DNA of 64,000 bases, from the NCBI RefSeq assembly GCF_000425205.1, contig NZ_AULI01000011.1, positions 62,001-126,000 of the forward strand. Direction: 5' to 3'. A program made the position numbers and the translations under genes. This document shows, in pieces, positions 6,086 through 59,966 of the stretch (the stretch's first letter is position 1; every line of letters begins with the position of its first letter). The notes beneath the pieces were generated by a model, which saw only the letters and a list, made by a program, of their open reading frames with translations, did not search any database and was not told the origin of the DNA. The stretch is from Pontibacillus halophilus JSM 076056 = DSM 19796. Its GTDB lineage: Bacteria > Bacillota > Bacilli > Bacillales > BH030062.

Positions 6086-8260
6086 TCACTCCTCTCCTTT
6101 CTCCGGAATACGTTGAAACACATCTTTCATAATGGAATAGCTTTCCTTCGGCTTTTCTATGAATTGAACCTCATCCCATCGTTCCCATTCATACATGGGA
6201 AGTTCAGAAACCGATAAAGGACGTTCATTCAACAACCCATTTGTTTCTTCTCCCATAACCCAAGGAACAACAGTGATTCCTTCAACGGCTTCTGAACTCA
6301 ATTCACTCGCATTTGAGTCATCCTCGTAGCTCACAGCCATGCGCTGACTCGGATCACTAAATCCAAGGAGAGCCCATGGGATTTTAAGCTCAATCGTATC
6401 GCCTGAAGCCGCCCAGGCGCTTTCACCATTCTGGCTCATTCTCCCTTCAACGAGCTCCCCAACTCCAACATCTTGGAATGGATAAGCTTGTTCTGTCTTA
6501 GAGGAATGTTGTTTCAAGCTTGTTGGTAGTTTCCATGGGACAAATGCACATGACGATTCCTCTCCTTCCATTTGGTCTTCATAAAGACGGGTATGGAAAT
6601 CGTAACTACATGCAACCTTCACTTCCTGCTCGTCAGAACCAACAATGGCCATTGTTTCTAAACCTTCATTAAATTCCACAGAGTCAAATGAAGAGGTGCC
6701 CCCTTCTAATGTGTGAAATCCGACGTTTAGTGTATCTGTTTTACGGTTATAGGGTTGTGACAATGTTAGCTTCAGATAAACGAAGCCTTCGTCATGAGTG
6801 ACATCCATTTCTGTGACGCCCGGAGTCTCTACCTGAAGACTTTCTACTTCTTCACGCTGTAGGTCATCCCAATCTGACGCCTTTCCATCAATGTCAATCT
6901 CCTCCGTTTTACTTGGATACATGCCAATCAGTCCGTAAGACATTTCATTGGATAGAGGGTTGTACCAGTATGCTGTACGATTCGATTGCTCATAGGGCAG
7001 CGAGTTCCATGTTTCTTTAAACCACTCGTCTTGCCAAGAGAATGTAATGGCTCCAGCATAACCACTGTCATAAATTTGATTGGTTAGCTGTGCATCAATC
7101 GTACCTTGTTCTTCTTCCGTATGACCGCCTTGGTCTCGACCGAGTGGACCTTCGTGAGCGTTCCCTGTCGAAGAAGCGACCCCATATTCAGAGATGATAA
7201 TCGGCATCCCTTTATGGTATTGCTTTAAGTCCTTCAAATAGCCAAGATAGGTATCTTCCTTACCATCTGCATTGTGTACATCTTGGTACGTGTCCGTGAA
7301 TCGCAGGAAATCTGGATAATACGGATAGACGTGATAGGAAGCGAAATAACCAGCATCCCAATCCTTTGCTTCAACATGCGTAGCATCGACACTTACATAA
7401 TCCTCAAGAATTGATGGCTCATCAGGATGGGTTAACGGATCGGTTGTAATCCAGTTCGTAAACGTCATCGGATGCTTCCAACCTTTCTCCTCTTCAAGCT
7501 CAGCTGTATACTCAAGCATTTCAGCCAGCCAGCCTTCAAATGGAGAAGCTGTCTCGTCTACTTGGAAATACTCCCCTTCGAACCGCTCTCGATCCACATT
7601 CTTCTCATTTGTCTCGTTCACCATTTCCGGGTCCCACTCTGTACCAATATGCCATGCGATTAAGTAAGGAGCGGCATTGACTGTGTAGGATCCGCTTGCT
7701 TTCCCAGGCTCCTCAGGAATTTCAGCATCCCCATACACAGCATCCACCGCCCGATGTAATTCCGCTTTAAACTCATGGACGACATCTTCCTGCCAAGCAT
7801 TGTTATGCTCTGCCAACAGATTGACAGGAGACCAGACTCCTTGCATGAAATAAAGCGGGTCTTCCTGATTCTCATTAAACTCTACAAGAGCTTCATAGAA
7901 CACAGGGTCGAGAATGGTATAGACGCGAACCGTATTCGCTCCCATGTCCTGAATCATTCGAAACCAGCTCAAGTAATCTTCCTTTGTCACTGGAAGCTCA
8001 CCTGGATAATGCCCGGGTAAAGTTGCTCCTATGTTGACTCCCTTGATGAACATGGGCGACCAGGAATCTTCTTTATACACCTGAAGTTGCTCCCCACTTG
8101 TACGGAACTTCAACTTCGTCCCATCTTCTAGCTCCTGACTCTCTATGACCTTAAACCCATCAAAGAGAATAAACGTAAGTACTCCTAAACTTAGTAGCCA
8201 CAGAGCGAGCCACTTTCCCTTTCTTCGAATGATCCATCCCTCCAAACCGTTGTGTTCCAT
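6086..8260 (-). CDS. Membrane-anchored glycoside hydrolase-like TIM-barrel protein
   Basis: First gene of the leftward polysaccharide operon, 724 residues. A signal-anchor helix (about residues 17-34) precedes an extracytoplasmic domain starting FIKGVNIGATLPGHYPGE. It has the clan GH-A look: IAWHIGTEWDPEM would carry the acid/base Glu and PIIISEYGVAS the nucleophile Glu. From about residue 450 a beta-rich module follows (EIDIDGKASDWDDL), probably for carbohydrate binding. It may trim, release or transfer the polymer made by the downstream glycosyltransferase outside the cell. No exact substrate can be given. The Shine-Dalgarno sequence is weak. Confidence 0.8.
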   Translation of the reverse strand: MEHNGLEGWIIRRKGKWLALWLLSLGVLTFILFDGFKVIESQELEDGTKLKFRTSGEQLQVYKEDSWSPMFIKGVNIGATLPGHYPGELPVTKEDYLSWFRMIQDMGANTVRVYTILDPVFYEALVEFNENQEDPLYFMQGVWSPVNLLAEHNNAWQEDVVHEFKAELHRAVDAVYGDAEIPEEPGKASGSYTVNAAPYLIAWHIGTEWDPEMVNETNEKNVDRERFEGEYFQVDETASPFEGWLAEMLEYTAELEEEKGWKHPMTFTNWITTDPLTHPDEPSILEDYVSVDATHVEAKDWDAGYFASYHVYPYYPDFLRFTDTYQDVHNADGKEDTYLGYLKDLKQYHKGMPIIISEYGVASSTGNAHEGPLGRDQGGHTEEEQGTIDAQLTNQIYDSGYAGAITFSWQDEWFKETWNSLPYEQSNRTAYWYNPLSNEMSYGLIGMYPSKTEEIDIDGKASDWDDLQREEVESLQVETPGVTEMDVTHDEGFVYLKLTLSQPYNRKTDTLNVGFHTLEGGTSSFDSVEFNEGLETMAIVGSDEQEVKVACSYDFHTRLYEDQMEGEESSCAFVPWKLPTSLKQHSSKTEQAYPFQDVGVGELVEGRMSQNGESAWAASGDTIELKIPWALLGFSDPSQRMAVSYEDDSNASELSSEAVEGITVVPWVMGEETNGLLNERPLSVSELPMYEWERWDEVQFIEKPKESYSIMKDVFQRIPEKGEE

Positions 8261-8617
8261 CTCTGTTTAAATTGTTCTTGAAAAAATTTTGTCAAACGTT
8301 TACTTTGAATATGCCCTTTGTTTGACTACGCTTTTACCCTATCACGGTGCGTGACCGTCCTACATCGAAAACGTCACTTCGGAAGCACGAAATTCGGTTT
8401 CGCGGTCTTCGTGCCACTATAACCTTTGACCCACATGAATTTAGTCCTAATTAACAAGGAAGAGTGGCGCGTTAGTCCTGCTTTGTCATCGTTCCTTCAC
8501 ACAGTAACCGCTTCCATTTACGTTGACTTAACACGACAGACCGAAATACGCATTTCGTGCCTACGTTCGATTGTTCGATGAATTTCGCGCAAAAATTTAA
8601 CAGAACAGGGAGCGTAG
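8261..8617. promoter_or_regulatory. Divergent intergenic region with two related hairpins
   Basis: This 357-base spacer separates the two divergent polysaccharide-type transcripts and so must hold both promoters. Two related elements occur: GCACGAA (8385-8391) pairing with TTCGTGC (8408-8414), and CGAAAT (8542-8547) pairing with ATTTCG (8552-8557) followed by TTCGTGCC like the first. A cre-like palindrome AAACGTTT lies at 8294-8301, close to the leftward start. TTGACA on the minus strand at 8290-8295 would give an almost leaderless transcript, so it is doubtful. No known riboswitch was recognised. Confidence 0.4.
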
Positions 8618-53992: not shown

Positions 53993-54024
53993 TTGTAATA
54001 AACCCAGAGCCGTACTAATATAAT
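53993..54024 (+). promoter_or_regulatory. Probable promoter of the HMA2/P-type ATPase cluster
   Basis: TTGTAA (53993-53998) with TAATAT 17 bases on; an overlapping TATAAT lies at 54019-54024. The leader would be about 35-40 bases. No known metal-regulator site was recognised. Confidence 0.45.
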
Positions 54025-54063: not shown

Positions 54064-54393
54064 ATGCTGTCCAAAGTGAAACAAGCTATCTTTCTTAGAC
54101 GAATTGAAAAAATGCTCGCACGCTACCAGATTACGGTGAAGCACTTCATTCCTGGACGCGTTCGGCTTTCCTCACCATATTGGCAAGGCAACTCAAAGAT
54201 TGTCCATATTCTCCTCCCTGTTCTCCAGTGTGAAGAACGAATCTATTCTGTTCGTCATACGCCTGAGACAGGGACGATTCTCGTAGAATTTGATTCCTCT
54301 AAAGACGTCACGGAAGAGCAAATTGAAACGTGGTTCAACAAGGTTCAGAAAGTACACAACGACGTCATCTCTAAAGAAGTGTTGCTGCCATGA
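54064..54393 (+). CDS. HMA2-like domain protein (HxxPGRxRL), first of cluster
   Basis: 109 residues built around one ferredoxin-like HMA-type domain: KHFIPGRVRLSSPYW, then IYSVRHTPETGTILVEFD. The metal-binding CxxC loop of ordinary HMA domains is replaced by HFIPGRVRL. There is no membrane helix. It may bind a metal through His or act as a regulatory or partner domain for the ATPase two genes on. The stop overlaps the next start (ATGA), so the two are coupled. Confidence 0.72.
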   Translation: MLSKVKQAIFLRRIEKMLARYQITVKHFIPGRVRLSSPYWQGNSKIVHILLPVLQCEERIYSVRHTPETGTILVEFDSSKDVTEEQIETWFNKVQKVHNDVISKEVLLP

Positions 54394-54923
54394 TTCAGAC
54401 TCTAATTGGCCTTGGAGCGTCATTCGCAATTCCAAGTTTAATGAAGCGGCTGAAAGACCAGAAAGTGCAAGTCTTACATGCAATGCCAGGCCGTGTTCGA
54501 CTCCAGAGTGACCATTGGAAGGACGATCACATTGCCGTCGCCTTGGAGGAACAGTTCTCAACGATTTCTATTGTAAAGAACGTTCGTGCATCAGGGACAA
54601 CTGGCAGCTTGTTAATTGAATTCACCACTCCCCACCTTACATCACAACAATTCGATGAAGTTGTTCAACTTGCTGTCGATACGTCAACAAGAGCCTATCG
54701 CCATGTTGATGCCTCTCTAACGAAATCAATGCGCCATGGCGTGGATTCACTAGACCAACTCATTAAGAAACAAACAGGTGCGAAGACAGATTTAGATTCT
54801 CTCATTGTACTTGGGCTACTAGTTAAAGGAACGACAGGATTTGCTACGAACCCAGCTTTCGCAAGTAGCTTGCTGTACTGGGCCTACACGATTCTTAAAC
54901 GAGAGGATGGTGGTTCTTCGTGA
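54390..54923 (+). CDS. HMA2-like domain protein with membrane-associated C-terminus
   Basis: 177 residues. HAMPGRVRLQSDHW opens an HMA2-like domain (about 28-100, ending SLLIEFTTPHL). The C-terminal part contains a short hydrophobic stretch (LDSLIVLGLLVKGTTGF, NPAFASSLLYWAYTIL) resembling the first membrane hairpin region of the ATPase. It overlaps both neighbours by 4 bases. Probably a subunit or assembly partner of the ATPase (inference from coupling and shared domain). Confidence 0.72.
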   Translation: MIQTLIGLGASFAIPSLMKRLKDQKVQVLHAMPGRVRLQSDHWKDDHIAVALEEQFSTISIVKNVRASGTTGSLLIEFTTPHLTSQQFDEVVQLAVDTSTRAYRHVDASLTKSMRHGVDSLDQLIKKQTGAKTDLDSLIVLGLLVKGTTGFATNPAFASSLLYWAYTILKREDGGSS

Positions 54924-57037
54924 GGACGCATCACGTTATTCATGCACTCCCTGGTCGTACGCGACTAAAGTTGAATACCGATGTGACACCCGAATTAATC
55001 GAAGCCATCTATCGTGGAATTCCTGGCGTCTATTCTGCTTCTTATACGACCGAAACAAGATCGCTTCTCGTTCATCACGACCCTCTCCTCCATCCGAACC
55101 ATCTCACAAAAGTCCTACCTACTAAAGGATTGAATTCGCGGACACACAAGGAAGAATTACTGTTAACGCTTGGCGCCTTCGCCATCGATCTCCTATTCCC
55201 ATCCAAGAGCTTTGTCGGCTTGAAGGCACTGATTCGTCCAGGTGCACTAGCCAGTTTATACGCATCAACTCCAATCCTCTCTAATGGGACGAAAGGATTG
55301 ATTGAAGCTCGTAAACCAAACGCGGACACACTCAGCACCACCGCAATCTTGGCTTCCTTACTAAAGGGAAGTCCACAGTCTGCCCTGGTCATCCTCTTCA
55401 TGTCAACATTAAGTGAAATGATTACCGACCATACAGCACAGCGAACGAGTCGCTATGTTCGTGACATGATGAATCTAGACGTCCCATATGTATGGAAGGT
55501 AAATGAACGCGGAAATGAGGAGAAGGTATCGATTCACGACGTGAAATGCGGGGATCAGATTGCCGTCTTTGAAGGGGAGAAAATCTCAGCCGACGGAGTT
55601 GTAGAAACCGGCTATGCATCAATTGATGAATCCTCTATTACAGGCGAGTACGTACCAAAGGATGTCACGATTGGAGAGCCTGTCTATGCAGGTACCATTC
55701 TTAAATCCGGCAACATTCGCCTGACAGTCGACAAGGTTGGAGCGGATACCGCCGTCTCCCAAATCGTTCAGTTGATTGAAGATGCACAGACGAAGAAGGC
55801 TCCGATTCAGACTCACGCCGATCAACTTTCTGAGCGGCTTGTTCCTGTATCATTTGGTCTCGCTGCTATGATTTATTTAGTAACCGGCAGTTGGGAACGA
55901 GTGTTGAACATGCTCGTCATCGATTTCGTCTGTGGCATTAAGCTCTCCACTGCGACCGCCATCTCTGCCTCCATCGGCAAGGCTGCCCGTCAAGGCGCCT
56001 TAATAAAGGGTGGCGAATTCGTCGAGAAGCTAGCCAGCATTGATACGACAATCTTAGATAAGACGGGGACGATTACAAGAGGCAAGCCGGTTGTAAAGAA
56101 GGTCATTCCTTATAACGGTTACTCAGAACGAGAACTCCTCCGCTATGTAGCCTCAGCAGAAGAGCATTCTTCACATCCGATTGCGGAAGCCATGGTCAAT
56201 CTAGCTCGTGAATGGAAGCTAGACATCCCAGAACACGACCACGACCAGCTACAACAAATCGTTGGACATGGAGTGAAAGCCACCGTGTCAGAGAAGACTG
56301 TGCTGGTCGGGAACAAGAAACTGTTGCTCCGAGAGAAGGTCGAGGCAAACGGATTAAAGTTTGTGGATAAATTATCCAAAAGCGGGAATACGGTCTATGT
56401 AGCCCTTGATGGACAAGTAGCTGGAGTGATTGTAATTGACGACGCGATTCGCACCGGTATGAAGCGAACGGTCAATCAACTTCGAAGACAAGGTGTGGAT
56501 GAAGTTGTGATGGTTACGGGTGACCGTGAGCATATCGCCAAGGACGTGCATCACGAACTTCAACTTGATGCTTACTATGCAGAAGTCCTTCCCCACGAAA
56601 AAGCCGACTACGTTCGACGGTATAAGAAAGGTGGTCATTCCGTAATGATGGTCGGCGATGGCATCAATGACGCACCTGCACTCGCCTATGCAGATGTCGG
56701 CGTCACCTTAGGTGGGAAACGAACGGATATTGCGGTTGAAGCAAGCGACGTGGTCCTTACCTCCGACAACCCTATCCTGTTATCCGATGTCATTCATTTA
56801 TCAAAGCGAACCATGCAAACCATTCATCAGAACTTTACGATTACGATTGCCATCAACAGCGCAGCCATCCTGCTTGGAGCGTTTGGAACGATTGCTCCGA
56901 TTGTCGGGGCAGCCATTCATAATGCCGCTACGATTGGCGTAGTGTTAAACAGTACGAAATTATTGTTGAAAGAGGAGCGAGGACAATGGGAGGAACCTTT
57001 GCCATCATCCACGACATACCTGGTCGACTCCGCTTAA
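54920..57037 (+). CDS. P1B-type heavy-metal ATPase with HMA2-like N-terminus and atypical membrane motif
   Basis: 705 residues. The N-terminus has HALPGRTRLKL instead of CxxC. The core P-type motifs are present: TGE (about 241-243), DKTGT (phospho-Asp about 380), SSHPIAEA (His of P1B class, about 419), GDGINDAP (about 580). The metal-site helix reads IDFVCGIKLSTATA: the usual CPC/SPC/TPC is Cys338-Gly, with a Lys two residues later. The last helices carry HNAATIGVVLNSTKLL. Together these point to a P1B pump outside the Cu and Zn/Cd classes; Mn2+ or Fe2+ are possible substrates but this is not shown. GTG start overlapping the previous stop. Confidence 0.85.
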   Translation: MRTHHVIHALPGRTRLKLNTDVTPELIEAIYRGIPGVYSASYTTETRSLLVHHDPLLHPNHLTKVLPTKGLNSRTHKEELLLTLGAFAIDLLFPSKSFVGLKALIRPGALASLYASTPILSNGTKGLIEARKPNADTLSTTAILASLLKGSPQSALVILFMSTLSEMITDHTAQRTSRYVRDMMNLDVPYVWKVNERGNEEKVSIHDVKCGDQIAVFEGEKISADGVVETGYASIDESSITGEYVPKDVTIGEPVYAGTILKSGNIRLTVDKVGADTAVSQIVQLIEDAQTKKAPIQTHADQLSERLVPVSFGLAAMIYLVTGSWERVLNMLVIDFVCGIKLSTATAISASIGKAARQGALIKGGEFVEKLASIDTTILDKTGTITRGKPVVKKVIPYNGYSERELLRYVASAEEHSSHPIAEAMVNLAREWKLDIPEHDHDQLQQIVGHGVKATVSEKTVLVGNKKLLLREKVEANGLKFVDKLSKSGNTVYVALDGQVAGVIVIDDAIRTGMKRTVNQLRRQGVDEVVMVTGDREHIAKDVHHELQLDAYYAEVLPHEKADYVRRYKKGGHSVMMVGDGINDAPALAYADVGVTLGGKRTDIAVEASDVVLTSDNPILLSDVIHLSKRTMQTIHQNFTITIAINSAAILLGAFGTIAPIVGAAIHNAATIGVVLNSTKLLLKEERGQWEEPLPSSTTYLVDSA

Positions 57038-57558
57038 ACGTACCAGCCTTGTATGACAAGCAAGAATATGATCAAATTGGAGATTTATTCTCCTCAATTA
57101 AAGGCATTGTAAGCGTTCGAATCGAACCTATTATTCAATCGATGATTATTTATTACAACGAAGAAGTCATCCACAAGAGATCCATTCTACGCTTTGTGAG
57201 CTTGTTCTTTAAGCAGACGAAGTTTGACCCGCTTGATAATATCATGGTCAACATTAATCCAAGCCAGCGCAAGGACTTGCTTCGCTCACTTGTAACGGGC
57301 TTTCTTCTTCTCCTCGCCTACTTGAACAAGTCATCAGGCAAGGTACCTGGAATGCTTGATTATGCCGTCGTCATCTCAACGGCGTATACGGTATTGTCAC
57401 ACGGAGAGAACAAGCTACGACATCCTGATGTTATTACAGGGATTGTCAGCATGCTGTCACTCGGAACAGGCAATATTCTTCATGTTGCCATGGTCACTTG
57501 GGCTGTGAACGTTATTGAATTGTTTAACGATGCAAATAAGAGCAAATTGCTTTTATAA
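56986..57558 (+). CDS. HMA2-like domain membrane protein, fourth of cluster
   Basis: 190 residues. IIHDIPGRLRLNVPAL begins an HMA2-like domain (about 5-75, SMIIYYNEEVI). Two or three hydrophobic segments follow (SLVTGFLLLLAYLN, LDYAVVISTAYTVLS, ILHVAMVTWAVNVIELF). It overlaps the 3' end of the ATPase gene by 52 bases in another frame, an unusually deep overlap. The ATG follows GAGCGAGGACA. Probably a membrane partner of the pump. Confidence 0.72.
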   Translation: MGGTFAIIHDIPGRLRLNVPALYDKQEYDQIGDLFSSIKGIVSVRIEPIIQSMIIYYNEEVIHKRSILRFVSLFFKQTKFDPLDNIMVNINPSQRKDLLRSLVTGFLLLLAYLNKSSGKVPGMLDYAVVISTAYTVLSHGENKLRHPDVITGIVSMLSLGTGNILHVAMVTWAVNVIELFNDANKSKLLL

Positions 57559-57591
57559 CATATATCTTAAAATTCTAGGAGGAATGAAGTT

Positions 57592-57837
57592 ATGGTTATG
57601 AATAAAGATTTTCTAATGGGGTTTGTATCAGGAACAGTTGTAGGAGCAGTTGGTTATCGCTTATATGAGCAGAATCAAGGCCAACTGTCCCAACTGATTC
57701 AGAACCCAGGACTAGGAAACCAAGCACAGAGCTCTCTTCAATCTGTACCGAATCAGAATCTCACGGTAGAAGACCTCGTCGCTCAGAAGGAACGCTTGGA
57801 AGATTTGATTGCAGAACAAAAAGTAAACAACCAATAA
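57592..57837 (+). CDS. Small YtxH/DUF5132-like membrane protein
   Basis: 81 residues: one N-terminal helix FLMGFVSGTVVGAVGYRLYE with Gly-zipper character, then a Gln/Asn-rich linker and a coiled-coil-like end (VAQKERLEDLIAEQK). AGGAGGAATGAAGTT precedes the ATG. Small proteins of this form often accompany HMA2 ATPase genes (recollection, not searched). Confidence 0.6.
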   Translation: MVMNKDFLMGFVSGTVVGAVGYRLYEQNQGQLSQLIQNPGLGNQAQSSLQSVPNQNLTVEDLVAQKERLEDLIAEQKVNNQ

Positions 57838-57848
57838 GAGGTGACACG

Positions 57849-58058
57849 TTGAGCAAGAACACCATTTATATCGGTTACTACAAAGGCAAGACTGAAGTTG
57901 AAGCAGTAGGTTTATGGCATCAAGGGGCTTGGGACGTCTTTCTAGCTGAGAACGACGTCCCAAACCGAGATCAGCATTTATTTAAAGCTACTTCGTTAGA
58001 TGAAGCGTACGACCATTTCTATGATTGGGTCGACGCTCATCTCCCGAAAGCACAGTGA
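57849..58058 (+). CDS. Small soluble protein, last gene of the HMA2 cluster
   Basis: 69 residues beginning MSKNTIYIGYYKGKTEVEAVG; aromatic-rich (LWHQGAWDVF, YDHFYDWVDAHL). No family was recognised. TTG start with GAGGTGACACG before it, 11 bases after the previous gene. A terminator follows, closing the six-gene unit. Confidence 0.6.
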   Translation: MSKNTIYIGYYKGKTEVEAVGLWHQGAWDVFLAENDVPNRDQHLFKATSLDEAYDHFYDWVDAHLPKAQ

Positions 58059-58088
58059 AAATCGCCAGAGAGATTTGGCGATTTTCTC
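58058..58088. terminator. Bidirectional terminator after the HMA2 cluster
   Basis: AAATCGCCA and TGGCGATTT form a perfect stem with A and T flanks on both sides, closing two convergent units. Confidence 0.88.
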
Positions 58089-58913
58089 TTATTCATGCAA
58101 CCAATCATAATAAGGGTTATCCCGGTCATTATGAACCTGATGGCGCACTAACCTTCTAAATTCCTCTCTTACCGCCCCGTAAAAATACGGCATGAATCCA
58201 CTCTTCACCTTCCCAATCATCCACACATACAGGCACGGCTTCAACACTTCAATAATGGAGTCTTCATAATCGTAAAGGTCCCCATACAGACGAACTTCTG
58301 CATAGGCTGTGACCACCCGCTTCCACGCTTCCTCAATCTCACATAGCGTCAAGTAGGGTTGAGCGACCTTCGCAAATGAACGAGGTATGTGGGAAGGCAA
58401 ATAGGTAAGATTGAACGCATTCGCTTCCCTTACGATATTCTCTTTATTAGGGTTTGTTTCTTTGTGTATTCTTTCTGTTTCCACGGTGCGTAGCACTCTT
58501 GAAGCCTGTTGTCTCAACGGTTCCCCCCTTGTCCATACCGTGTCTTTAACGGTGTCAGGTAGGGTGTCATCCTTCTCCACATGGTTTCGATAAGGTTGAA
58601 TGACGAGCAGATTCACACCCCTCTTCCCATTCGCCCGGACCGTCTCTACCCGTGTAAGTAAACCAAGCTCCACGAAACGTCGAATGGAGCGTACGACCGT
58701 ACTCCGACTTTTCTTCGTTCCCTTCATAATTGTCTCTACCTTCGCATACGATACACCCGGGAATTTAACAGAATGACGCCATATAAACCTTAAGACCTCG
58801 TAATTCCCTTCCGATAATTCGTACTTCCACCTTTGCACGAACCCTCTCACTCGTTCATCCATCTCTTTTTTCGTACGAAACGTCTGATACTCTCTTAACT
58901 CGGAGCGATACAT
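58089..58913 (-). CDS. Winged-helix, replication-initiator-like protein
   Basis: About 274 residues. The N-terminal half carries a winged helix (NYEVLRFIWRHSVKFPGVSYAKVETIM, SRSTVVRSIRRFVELGLLTRVETVR), like plasmid replication or helix-turn-helix proteins of Bacillaceae. The C-terminal half is helical and aromatic (VKSGFMPYFYGAVREEFRRL). On a chromosome this could be a plasmid remnant or a regulator. ATG at 58913 after AGAGGTGG. No iterons or origin were seen next to it. Confidence 0.65.
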   Translation of the reverse strand: MYRSELREYQTFRTKKEMDERVRGFVQRWKYELSEGNYEVLRFIWRHSVKFPGVSYAKVETIMKGTKKSRSTVVRSIRRFVELGLLTRVETVRANGKRGVNLLVIQPYRNHVEKDDTLPDTVKDTVWTRGEPLRQQASRVLRTVETERIHKETNPNKENIVREANAFNLTYLPSHIPRSFAKVAQPYLTLCEIEEAWKRVVTAYAEVRLYGDLYDYEDSIIEVLKPCLYVWMIGKVKSGFMPYFYGAVREEFRRLVRHQVHNDRDNPYYDWLHE

Positions 58914-59140
58914 CCCTACCACCTCTTCCGTTTATGACTATAATCGTCATAAGAAGAGAGTTTGGGGGCTTAAGTGCTACATCTCGCCCAAGTTACACGC
59001 GTGCTGAAGCCGCTCGGTACTGTCCTAGGAACACCGGAGTATGAGGAAATCAAACACAACATTGCAATCGTGAAATTCCCAGAGCACCTTCCCCATGCAT
59101 GTAGCCTATTTGCATAAACCGACTTATTTCTAGTTGTAAA

Positions 59141-59155
59141 GCGTAATTATTACTA
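59141..59155 (+). promoter_or_regulatory. Zur box 1 upstream of zinT
   Basis: GCGTAATTATTACTA against the Zur consensus TCGTAATNATTACGA (three mismatches, all in the outer bases; the core CGTAATnATTAC is intact). Confidence 0.6.
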
Positions 59156-59184
59156 TTTACAAATCGTAATCATTACTATAGAAT
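59156..59184 (+). promoter_or_regulatory. zinT promoter
   Basis: TTTACA (59156-59161), 17-base spacer, TAGAAT (59179-59184). Zur box 2 fills the spacer. Confidence 0.65.
59164..59178 (+). promoter_or_regulatory. Zur box 2 inside the zinT promoter
   Basis: TCGTAATCATTACTA matches TCGTAATNATTACGA except at one base, centred between -35 and -10: a repressor position. Confidence 0.78.
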
Positions 59185-59210: not shown

Positions 59211-59966
59211 ATGGTTAAAAAATTCTTAGGCATTATTAGTGTAGTTGCTTTACTGTTCATTATGACTGCTTGTGGAGAAGAAGAGTCAAGCAGCAGTGAA
59301 GAAGTGAAAGAATCAGAGGCTGTATCCGATTCGTCCGGAGGTTCAGATGAATCCTCTAAATCAGAAGAGCAGAGTGAACACAATCATGACCATGATCACG
59401 ACCATAGCCATGCACATGATGAAGAAGCACAACGCATTTATGATGGTTACTTTGAAGATGATCAAGTGAAGGATCGTCAACTATCTGATTGGGCAGGAGA
59501 TTGGCAATCCGTATACCCACACCTTCAGGATGGGACACTCGATGAAGTTTTCTCTCATAAGGCTGAAGATGACAGTGATAGGACAGCAGAAGAATATAAA
59601 GAGTATTATAAAGTTGGCTATGAGACAGATGTGGAACGTATTGTCATTGAAGACAATAACGTAACGTTCTTCGAAAATGGCGAAGAGTCTACTGGGGAGT
59701 ATAATTACAATGGATATGAAATACTTACCTACGAAGCGGGAAATAGAGGGGTACGTTACATATTTAAGCTAACTGAAGAGTCTCAAGACCTCCCTCAATA
59801 TATCCAATTTAGTGACCACAGCATCAATCCAACCGATGCGGACCACTATCACCTGTACTGGGGCAATGACCGTGAAGCGCTATTGGATGAAGTCACAAAC
59901 TGGCCAACCTATTATCCATCAGAAATGGACGGTCATGAAATCGCACATGAGATGATGAAGCATTAA
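59211..59966 (+). CDS. zinT: ZinT/YodA-type zinc-binding lipoprotein
   Basis: 251 residues. Lipobox FIMTAC (Cys about 20), then a Ser/Glu/Asp-rich linker and a His-rich stretch HNHDHDHDHSHAHD (about 57-70) that should bind zinc. The ZinT domain follows: LSDWAGDWQSVYPHLQDGTLDEVF, RYIFKLTE, YIQFSDHSINPTDADHYHLYWG. It scavenges zinc at the cell surface, normally feeding a ZnuABC-type importer, which is not in the window. Two Zur boxes overlap the promoter, so it should be expressed under zinc shortage. AAGGAGGAGAAACA precedes the ATG. Confidence 0.92.
   Translation: MVKKFLGIISVVALLFIMTACGEEESSSSEEVKESEAVSDSSGGSDESSKSEEQSEHNHDHDHDHSHAHDEEAQRIYDGYFEDDQVKDRQLSDWAGDWQSVYPHLQDGTLDEVFSHKAEDDSDRTAEEYKEYYKVGYETDVERIVIEDNNVTFFENGEESTGEYNYNGYEILTYEAGNRGVRYIFKLTEESQDLPQYIQFSDHSINPTDADHYHLYWGNDREALLDEVTNWPTYYPSEMDGHEIAHEMMKH

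Follow-up and report, generated by a model that had tools for sequence, protein, structure and literature searches.

A P1B-type ATPase gene within a conserved set of HMA2-type companion genes in Pontibacillus halophilus and other Bacilli, repeatedly found beside metal-uptake genes

The P1B-6 class of metal-transporting P-type ATPases is defined by the motif SCA in membrane segment M4. As far as the accessible text of two papers goes, no member of the class had been examined biochemically as of 2016 (PMC4932525) and these pumps were called poorly characterised in 2022 (PMC9374683). The accessible part of the latter paper, by Boudehen et al., describes CtpC of mycobacteria as P1B6-like by its HN and CPC motifs and reports DUF6110 proteins beside P1B6 pumps (PMC9374683); the small protein PacL1 is needed for the stability of CtpC and forms membrane clusters with it (PMC9374683, PMC13043812, both in excerpt). 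Here we describe a gene cluster around a P1B-type ATPase at positions 54064-58058 of a 64,000-nucleotide stretch of the genome of Pontibacillus halophilus JSM 076056 = DSM 19796 (contig NZ_AULI01000011.1), hereafter the window. The ATPase belongs to a conserved set of five genes that is found repeatedly beside genes for metal uptake, and one of its companions resembles the front half of the pump. What is new here is that this companion appears to copy that half without its catalytic function. In the open-access literature that we searched, with HMA2-domain and PF19991 wording included, no description of the set was seen among the matches listed; most subscription journals lay outside that search.

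The cluster comprises six open reading frames, all on the plus strand, which we name A to F: A (54064..54393, 109 aa), B (54390..54923, 177 aa), C (54920..57037, the 705-aa ATPase), D (56986..57558, 190 aa), E (57592..57837, 81 aa) and F (57849..58058, 69 aa). An earlier note on this DNA, made from the sequence alone, had correctly reported six plus-strand genes, followed by a terminator, and four consecutive products that carry HxxPGRxRL. It had also described the genes as mostly overlapping by 4 bases, which applies to A/B and B/C only; C and D overlap by 52 bases, and gaps of 33 and 11 bases separate D from E and E from F. The motif reads HFIPGRVRL in A, HAMPGRVRL in B, HALPGRTRL in the N-terminal HMA2-like domain of C and HDIPGRLRL in D, and lies near the position matching that at which classical HMA domains have their CxxC metal site, a site that the companions lack although the fold of the N-terminal domain of D is alike. 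Since A, B and D pass the cut-off of the Pfam HMA_2 model (PF19991; 36.5 bits for A against a cut-off of 30, and 69.7 bits for B over residues 25-167) and the motif recurs in 29 further Bacilli loci, we do not regard these motifs as chance occurrences, and the proposal of the earlier note that the companions are HMA2-like is borne out by profile searches.

Judged by its sequence, C is a complete P1B-type ATPase and the catalytic subunit. Its TGE, DKTGT (D380), HP and GDGxND motifs are kept as invariant alignment columns, it matches E1-E2_ATPase and Hydrolase in Pfam and TIGR01525 in NCBIfam (533 bits, cut-off 346), and its AlphaFold2 (AF2) model (mean pLDDT 77.6) resembles CopA (4bbj, E 2e-46) and a zinc pump (4umw, E 1e-44) in Foldseek. 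The P1B core and the HMA fold of the N-domain are shared with CopA and ZntA (P1B-1 and P1B-2); however, those pumps have CPC and CxxC HMA domains, whereas the cluster has neither and carries HxxPGRxRL instead. The M4 motif of C, MLVIDFVCGIKL (residues 331-342; 55910..55945, plus strand), contains D335 and C338 and neither CPC nor proline, with FVC aligning to the CPC in M4 of CopA. Together with the HN of M6 (H667 and N668; 56918..56923, plus strand), D335 and C338 are conserved without exception in the 31 pumps aligned, three of them next to DUF6110 genes, and the metal site of C would sit between D335/C338 and H667/N668. The pattern ML[VF]ID[FY]xCGx[KQ]L fits the C proteins of all 30 Bacilli clusters (29 loci and the window), with VCG or ICG as the triplet in 29 and SCG in one (L069); outside the Bacilli 14 of 15 pumps have SCG and the remaining one, in L129, has ACG.

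Comparison with the pumps that adjoin DUF6110 genes places C close to the P1B-6 class. The three DUF6110-adjacent pumps read VDFSCALKL or VDYSCAIKL in M4 (for L093 the DUF6110 match is below cut-off), and in a quick IQ-TREE phylogeny of 46 rows, with long-branch warnings for some rows outside the C clade, C proteins form the sister clade of these SCA/HN pumps (SH-aLRT 98). The two groups share HN in M6, D..C in M4 and an adjoining small partner gene, but where the P1B-6 pumps have SCA those of the cluster have VCG (in outliers SCG or ACG), the DUF6110 model does not match E, and the cluster has extra HMA2 proteins. As C has the HN of P1B-6 and lacks its SCA, we describe it as a sister of that class and not as a member. 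CtpC-PacL1, a P1B6-like pump with a DUF1490 partner, is also alike in having HN in M6 and a small membrane partner in its operon; unlike C, CtpC has CPC, HMA2 satellites are not named for it in the accessible part of the paper, and the tail of PacL1 is His-rich and binds metal (PMC9374683, in excerpt), whereas the cluster has no DUF1490 partner and E of the window contains no histidine. Two CtpC-like pumps with CPC, HN and an N-terminal HMA2 domain, from genomes of the same phylum (L134, 4521-6878; L135, 6978-9269), fall outside the joint C/SCA clade. When the N-domain of C was compared with PF19991, five of nine aligned C proteins matched at E up to 1, that of the window not being among the matches listed.

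The companions appear to repeat parts of this pump. The HMA2 parts of B and D are similar to the N-domain of C in profile-profile comparison (hhalign, E 3e-15 and 2e-14). A hydropathy scan (19 residues, threshold 1.4) predicted no hydrophobic helix in A, which may act as a soluble cytosolic relay consisting of a further copy of the HMA2 domain of the pump; B carries another such copy. The same scan gave no peak of at least 1.4 in B. The earlier note had taken two of the three companions to be membrane-associated; for B this found no support. A pump-derived membrane part at the C-terminus of B was considered and rejected, the likeness to the helices of C not being significant (hhalign, E 0.04).

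The duplication of the pump's N-terminal domain in three companions, as the earlier note had it, stands in outline, but D resembles more than that domain. Along its length, D shows profile likeness to residues 1-182 of C (hhalign, probability 98, E 3e-13). Its membrane part alone aligns with the first four helices of C over 92 columns at E 2.1e-4, with a probability of only 46, compared with E 0.24 for the reversed profile, 0.52 for M3-M4 and 0.31 for M5-M6. In the AF2 model (mean pLDDT 73, pTM 0.43, helical half 50-79) an HMA-like domain is followed by four helices; these rest on the model, because hydropathy shows a single helix. In the Protein Data Bank (PDB) the N-domain matches HMA domains (6a71_B, Z 8.9, rmsd 2.0, 65 aligned residues; most rows cover residues 6-78), and Foldseek with the whole chain returned nothing at E <=0.001, ATP7B being best at E 0.017. 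The structure does not settle the origin of the helical half, because it also scores Z 8.9 with an unrelated nucleotidyltransferase, as high as the HMA matches. Six residues of D (H139, H146, D148, W172, N175 and E178) are invariant among 23 proteins. We conclude that D probably duplicates the front half of the pump, HMA2 domain and four helices, and is catalytically empty; it corresponds to about the first 180 residues of C. In the membrane it may act as a subunit that reproduces the entry platform of the pump without the catalytic domains.

E carries a glycine-rich putative membrane helix, MGFVSGTVVGAVGYRLYEQN, and the C-terminal motif EDLxxQKERLEDLIAE. The helix is proposed from this PacL-like pattern, because the hydropathy scan showed none. 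No Pfam or NCBIfam model recognised E above its cut-off, the best sub-threshold hit being YidB at E 0.0048, and assignment of E to DUF5132, which the earlier note had named as a family to search with, or to any other known family was therefore dropped. PF19605 (DUF6110) matched nothing across the genome of the window and none of nine E proteins; profile comparison gave a faint likeness between E and DUF6110 (E 7e-4, probability 26, against 0.05 for the reversed profile, with only three DUF6110 sequences in the profile). By analogy with CtpC-PacL1, E may be a small scaffold of the PacL/DUF6110 kind, serving to assemble or stabilise the pump.

To determine how far the set extends, we used D as the search key, so that the presence of D is given in both of the following sets, which share genomes. 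Within the order, 13 of 299 genomes, from 8 of 116 genera, gave a match to D, and 12 of these, including that of the window, have A-B-C-D-E. Among genome contigs, 30 Bacilli loci (L055-L084) encode a relative of D and 29 keep A-B-C-D-E in that order, overlapping or closely spaced, so that the gene order is kept well beyond this genome. Frame splits interrupt B in L056 and L075, and A has only 55 aa in L069. HxxPGRxR was found in A of 27, B of 28, C of all 29 and D of 26 of these loci; it is absent from A of L068 and L069 and from D of L066, L068 and L069, where S or T replaces P, and was not seen in B of L075, a frame-split gene of which only the better-scoring piece was inspected. The thirtieth locus, L084 of Halobacillus hunanensis, retains only the C-terminal portion of D and a vestige of E (7974-8360), perhaps a decaying cluster. 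F, which the earlier note had counted in the set and which has no Pfam or NCBIfam family, is present in the window, L055, L056 and L076 only (4 of 30; its profile was built from two sequences). The conserved core is thus the five genes A-B-C-D-E, and F is not part of it. In the same phylum outside the Bacilli, 15 loci combine A, B, C and E, comprising 5 of 12 in one fetched set (L126-L130) and 10 of 11 in another (L144-L153; the remaining one, L154, stops at a contig edge). Their order is E-A-B-C in 13 and A-B-C-D-E in L129 and L145. Three of the 13 loci in which D was not recognised (L128, L148 and L151) encode a second protein whose HMA2 domain is C-terminal. The E profile matched in 18 of 398 genomes of the phylum, that of the window included, although one match (G460) lies in a 556-aa frame and is probably not E. 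No relative of B was confirmed in the viral contigs searched.

This distribution bears on whether A to E act together at all. The HMA2 proteins could be separate metal buffers or sensors, with D an inhibitor or the relic of a duplicated pump gene, and two findings suit such a reading: only 2 of the 15 loci outside the Bacilli have a recognisable D, and the thirteenth D-bearing genome of the order has only an E'-D' pair (L051, 7304-8035; E' of 54 aa without its first half, D' of 136 aa), near which neither A, B nor a pump was recognised. The close association of all five genes in 29 of 30 loci and the invariant residues in the membrane half of D argue against it, and we regard it as improbable.

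The genes that surround the cluster point to divalent metals. We surveyed about 8 kb on each side of the 29 Bacilli clusters and of the window (n = 30; L063, L067 and L078 are shortened by contig ends). An ABC importer with a ZnuA-family binding protein adjoins nine of them (L057, L058, L059, L061, L070, L071, L072, L073 and L079, all nine by Pfam), Nramp adjoins L066, ZIP adjoins L065 and L076, and ZinT adjoins L080 and the window. These four families occur at 14 of 30 loci by BLAST tally, against 0.7 expected from 12 cluster-bearing control genomes (mean 5.9 such genes per 4.35 Mb, or 0.024 per locus). This null is rough, as all control genomes carry the cluster, neighbours were counted by BLAST and controls by Pfam, and ZIP and Nramp fragments were merged by hand. 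Parsimony on the tree required three changes for the ABC importer and six for any metal gene. L075 adds a DUF1980/ArsP_1-permease pair, which we take to be YcgRQ, and L083 a DtxR gene with FeoA/FeoB_N, so that divalent-metal uptake genes lie near 16 of 30 loci; outside the Bacilli, FeoB adjoins 4 of 15 (L127, L145, L147 and L149, the first and last from one genus).

Two further uptake-type genes lie outside these counts. In L062 (9135-13933), the cluster is followed by D-glutamate cyclase, carboxyltransferase and LamB/YcsF genes with a distant Nramp-family gene, a pyroglutamate-type operon; this Nramp-family gene was found by Pfam and missed by the BLAST tally, and is left out of both 14 and 16. 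In B. subtilis, ycsG of the pxpA operon is a Mn2+ transporter locus according to the accessible text of PMC10448178. A genome outside the 30 loci has a ZIP-family match (G283:C1:156820-157218) some 600 bases away from the cluster's D end.

Sites resembling that of a metal regulator occur at some of these loci. A regular-expression scan of L055-L084 for MntR-like sites (for the regulator, see the accessible parts of PMC10448178 and PMC11275975) found seven distinct ones, three of them before A (L071, L072 and L079), three before importers (L058, L059 and L066) and one in L075 without such a gene. The match before A is 13/16 in all three cases and was reached in 0, 0 and 1% of 200 shuffles of the 300 bases upstream; as these three loci are near relatives (Neobacillus), we count the box as one event. 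A looser pattern matched three times over the whole of L071 against 0.16 expected, two of the matches lying elsewhere than before A. L083 has a weaker match before A (15/19), and the window has none. Upstream of A in the 30 loci no Zur box was found within 4 mismatches of the consensus, and Fur and PerR matches were mostly at chance level (best Fur 12/14 in L065, shuffle p 0.025; best PerR 12/14 in L078, p 0.015; both uncorrected for 30 loci). In the window, A is preceded by a putative sigma-A promoter, TTGTAA-17-TAATAT (53993..54021, plus strand), which was read by eye and not found by a promoter scan; near relatives have similar TTGTWA / TTGTCA elements, again by eye.

We put at about even the chance that A to E act as a single functional unit, a P-type pump for divalent metals that works alongside importers and exports Mn2+, Fe2+ or Zn2+. 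The unit would then provide overflow or mis-metal control for high-affinity uptake. The choice among the three metals, the outward direction, the single complex and the partnership with importers are parts that we infer: the role beside importers from the neighbourhood and the one MntR-like promoter, the direction from P-type pumps in general. More tentatively, the unit may be a five-subunit P-type pump in which the empty front half (HMA2 with MA-MB-M1-M2) has become a dedicated subunit, acting as an export partner that proof-reads or relieves Mn, Fe or Zn importers. The companion set, the half-pump protein and the repeated link to Mn/Fe/Zn uptake would give a testable substrate range and a model for the sister clade of P1B-6. 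A direct part in metal uptake would also suit neighbours that are mostly importers and the MntR-like box before A in the three Neobacillus loci, but the catalytic motifs of C are ordinary and the P1B pumps characterised so far are, to our knowledge, exporters; we consider this the least probable of the readings weighed here.

Several observations weigh against a pump that serves beside importers. The families of the adjacency test were picked after the neighbours had been seen, related loci are not independent, and none of the searched metal-uptake genes lies near 14 of the 30 Bacilli loci (the three cut by contig ends among them). The neighbours point to Mn, Fe and Zn together, and the PDB proteins most similar to the binding protein of L071 are TroA (with one entry named zinc-binding) and a ZnuA, followed by Mn-binding proteins; as TroA and ZnuA outrank the latter, its sequence does not settle the metal of that importer. 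The AF2 model is weak for the helical half of D, Pfam places E in neither DUF6110 nor DUF1490, and PacL1 binds zinc and not manganese, according to the available part of PMC9374683. Under a repressor-type box the pump would be induced at low Mn, which would be odd for plain Mn efflux. Efflux-type neighbours are also present, a CadA-like ATPase with an ArsR regulator by L066, another P1B ATPase by L083 and a CDF protein by L073.

The last of these points would suit a plain Zn, Cd or Co resistance pump, CtpC-PacL1-like, with the uptake neighbours reflecting metal islands and not a joint function. The patchy spread of D in the order and its occurrence on Priestia plasmids (14 of 72,556 PLSDB records, all Priestia) are what would be expected of an accessory trait, and CtpC serves zinc resistance (PMC9374683, in excerpt). 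Nearby metal genes are, however, mostly uptake or starvation genes, the neighbour families common to at least three loci include no ArsR-type regulator, and the MntR-like box lies close upstream of the gene, where a repressor could act; we find a resistance pump rather doubtful. The pump might also export Mn2+ (or Fe2+) for the loading of proteins beyond the cytosol, a role once put forward for CtpC. This would fit the Mn-type importers and MntR-like box beside some clusters, and CtpC, which shares HN, was reported by others to be a slow Mn2+ pump (cited in PMC9374683). However, the accessible text of that paper argues for zinc in CtpC, and the ZIP, ZinT, DUF1980/permease and Feo neighbours misfit a Mn-only role, so that we hold this explanation unlikely.

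One of the Priestia plasmids is pBM400 of Priestia megaterium QM B1551, which carries the cluster at L138 7055-10881 and could serve as a model for the sister clade of the orphan P1B-6 class. On pBM400 and p5_CACC119, the two plasmid records examined among the 14, the cluster adjoins TIGR03943 and permease genes.

HMA_2 domains also occur on very long P-type ATPases of the same phylum, such as a 1419-aa protein with an N-terminal HMA_2 domain (L028, 1539-5798); further frames of 1430-1648 aa with HMA_2 matches exist. In contrast to the cluster, the L028 protein is a single giant chain that includes Cation_ATPase_N and _C domains, and is neither of the P1B type nor a set of separate genes.

Downstream of the cluster in the window, the intrinsic-terminator-like site (58057..58086, 13 pairs, both strands) also reads for a convergent gene at 58089-58922. 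Beyond it, outside the operon, lies the gene of the ZinT-family lipoprotein (59211..59966, plus strand; PF09223, 291 bits). It is preceded by two Zur-box-like palindromes (59138..59181, plus strand; 2 and 3 mismatches), which recurred in 0 of 100 shuffles.

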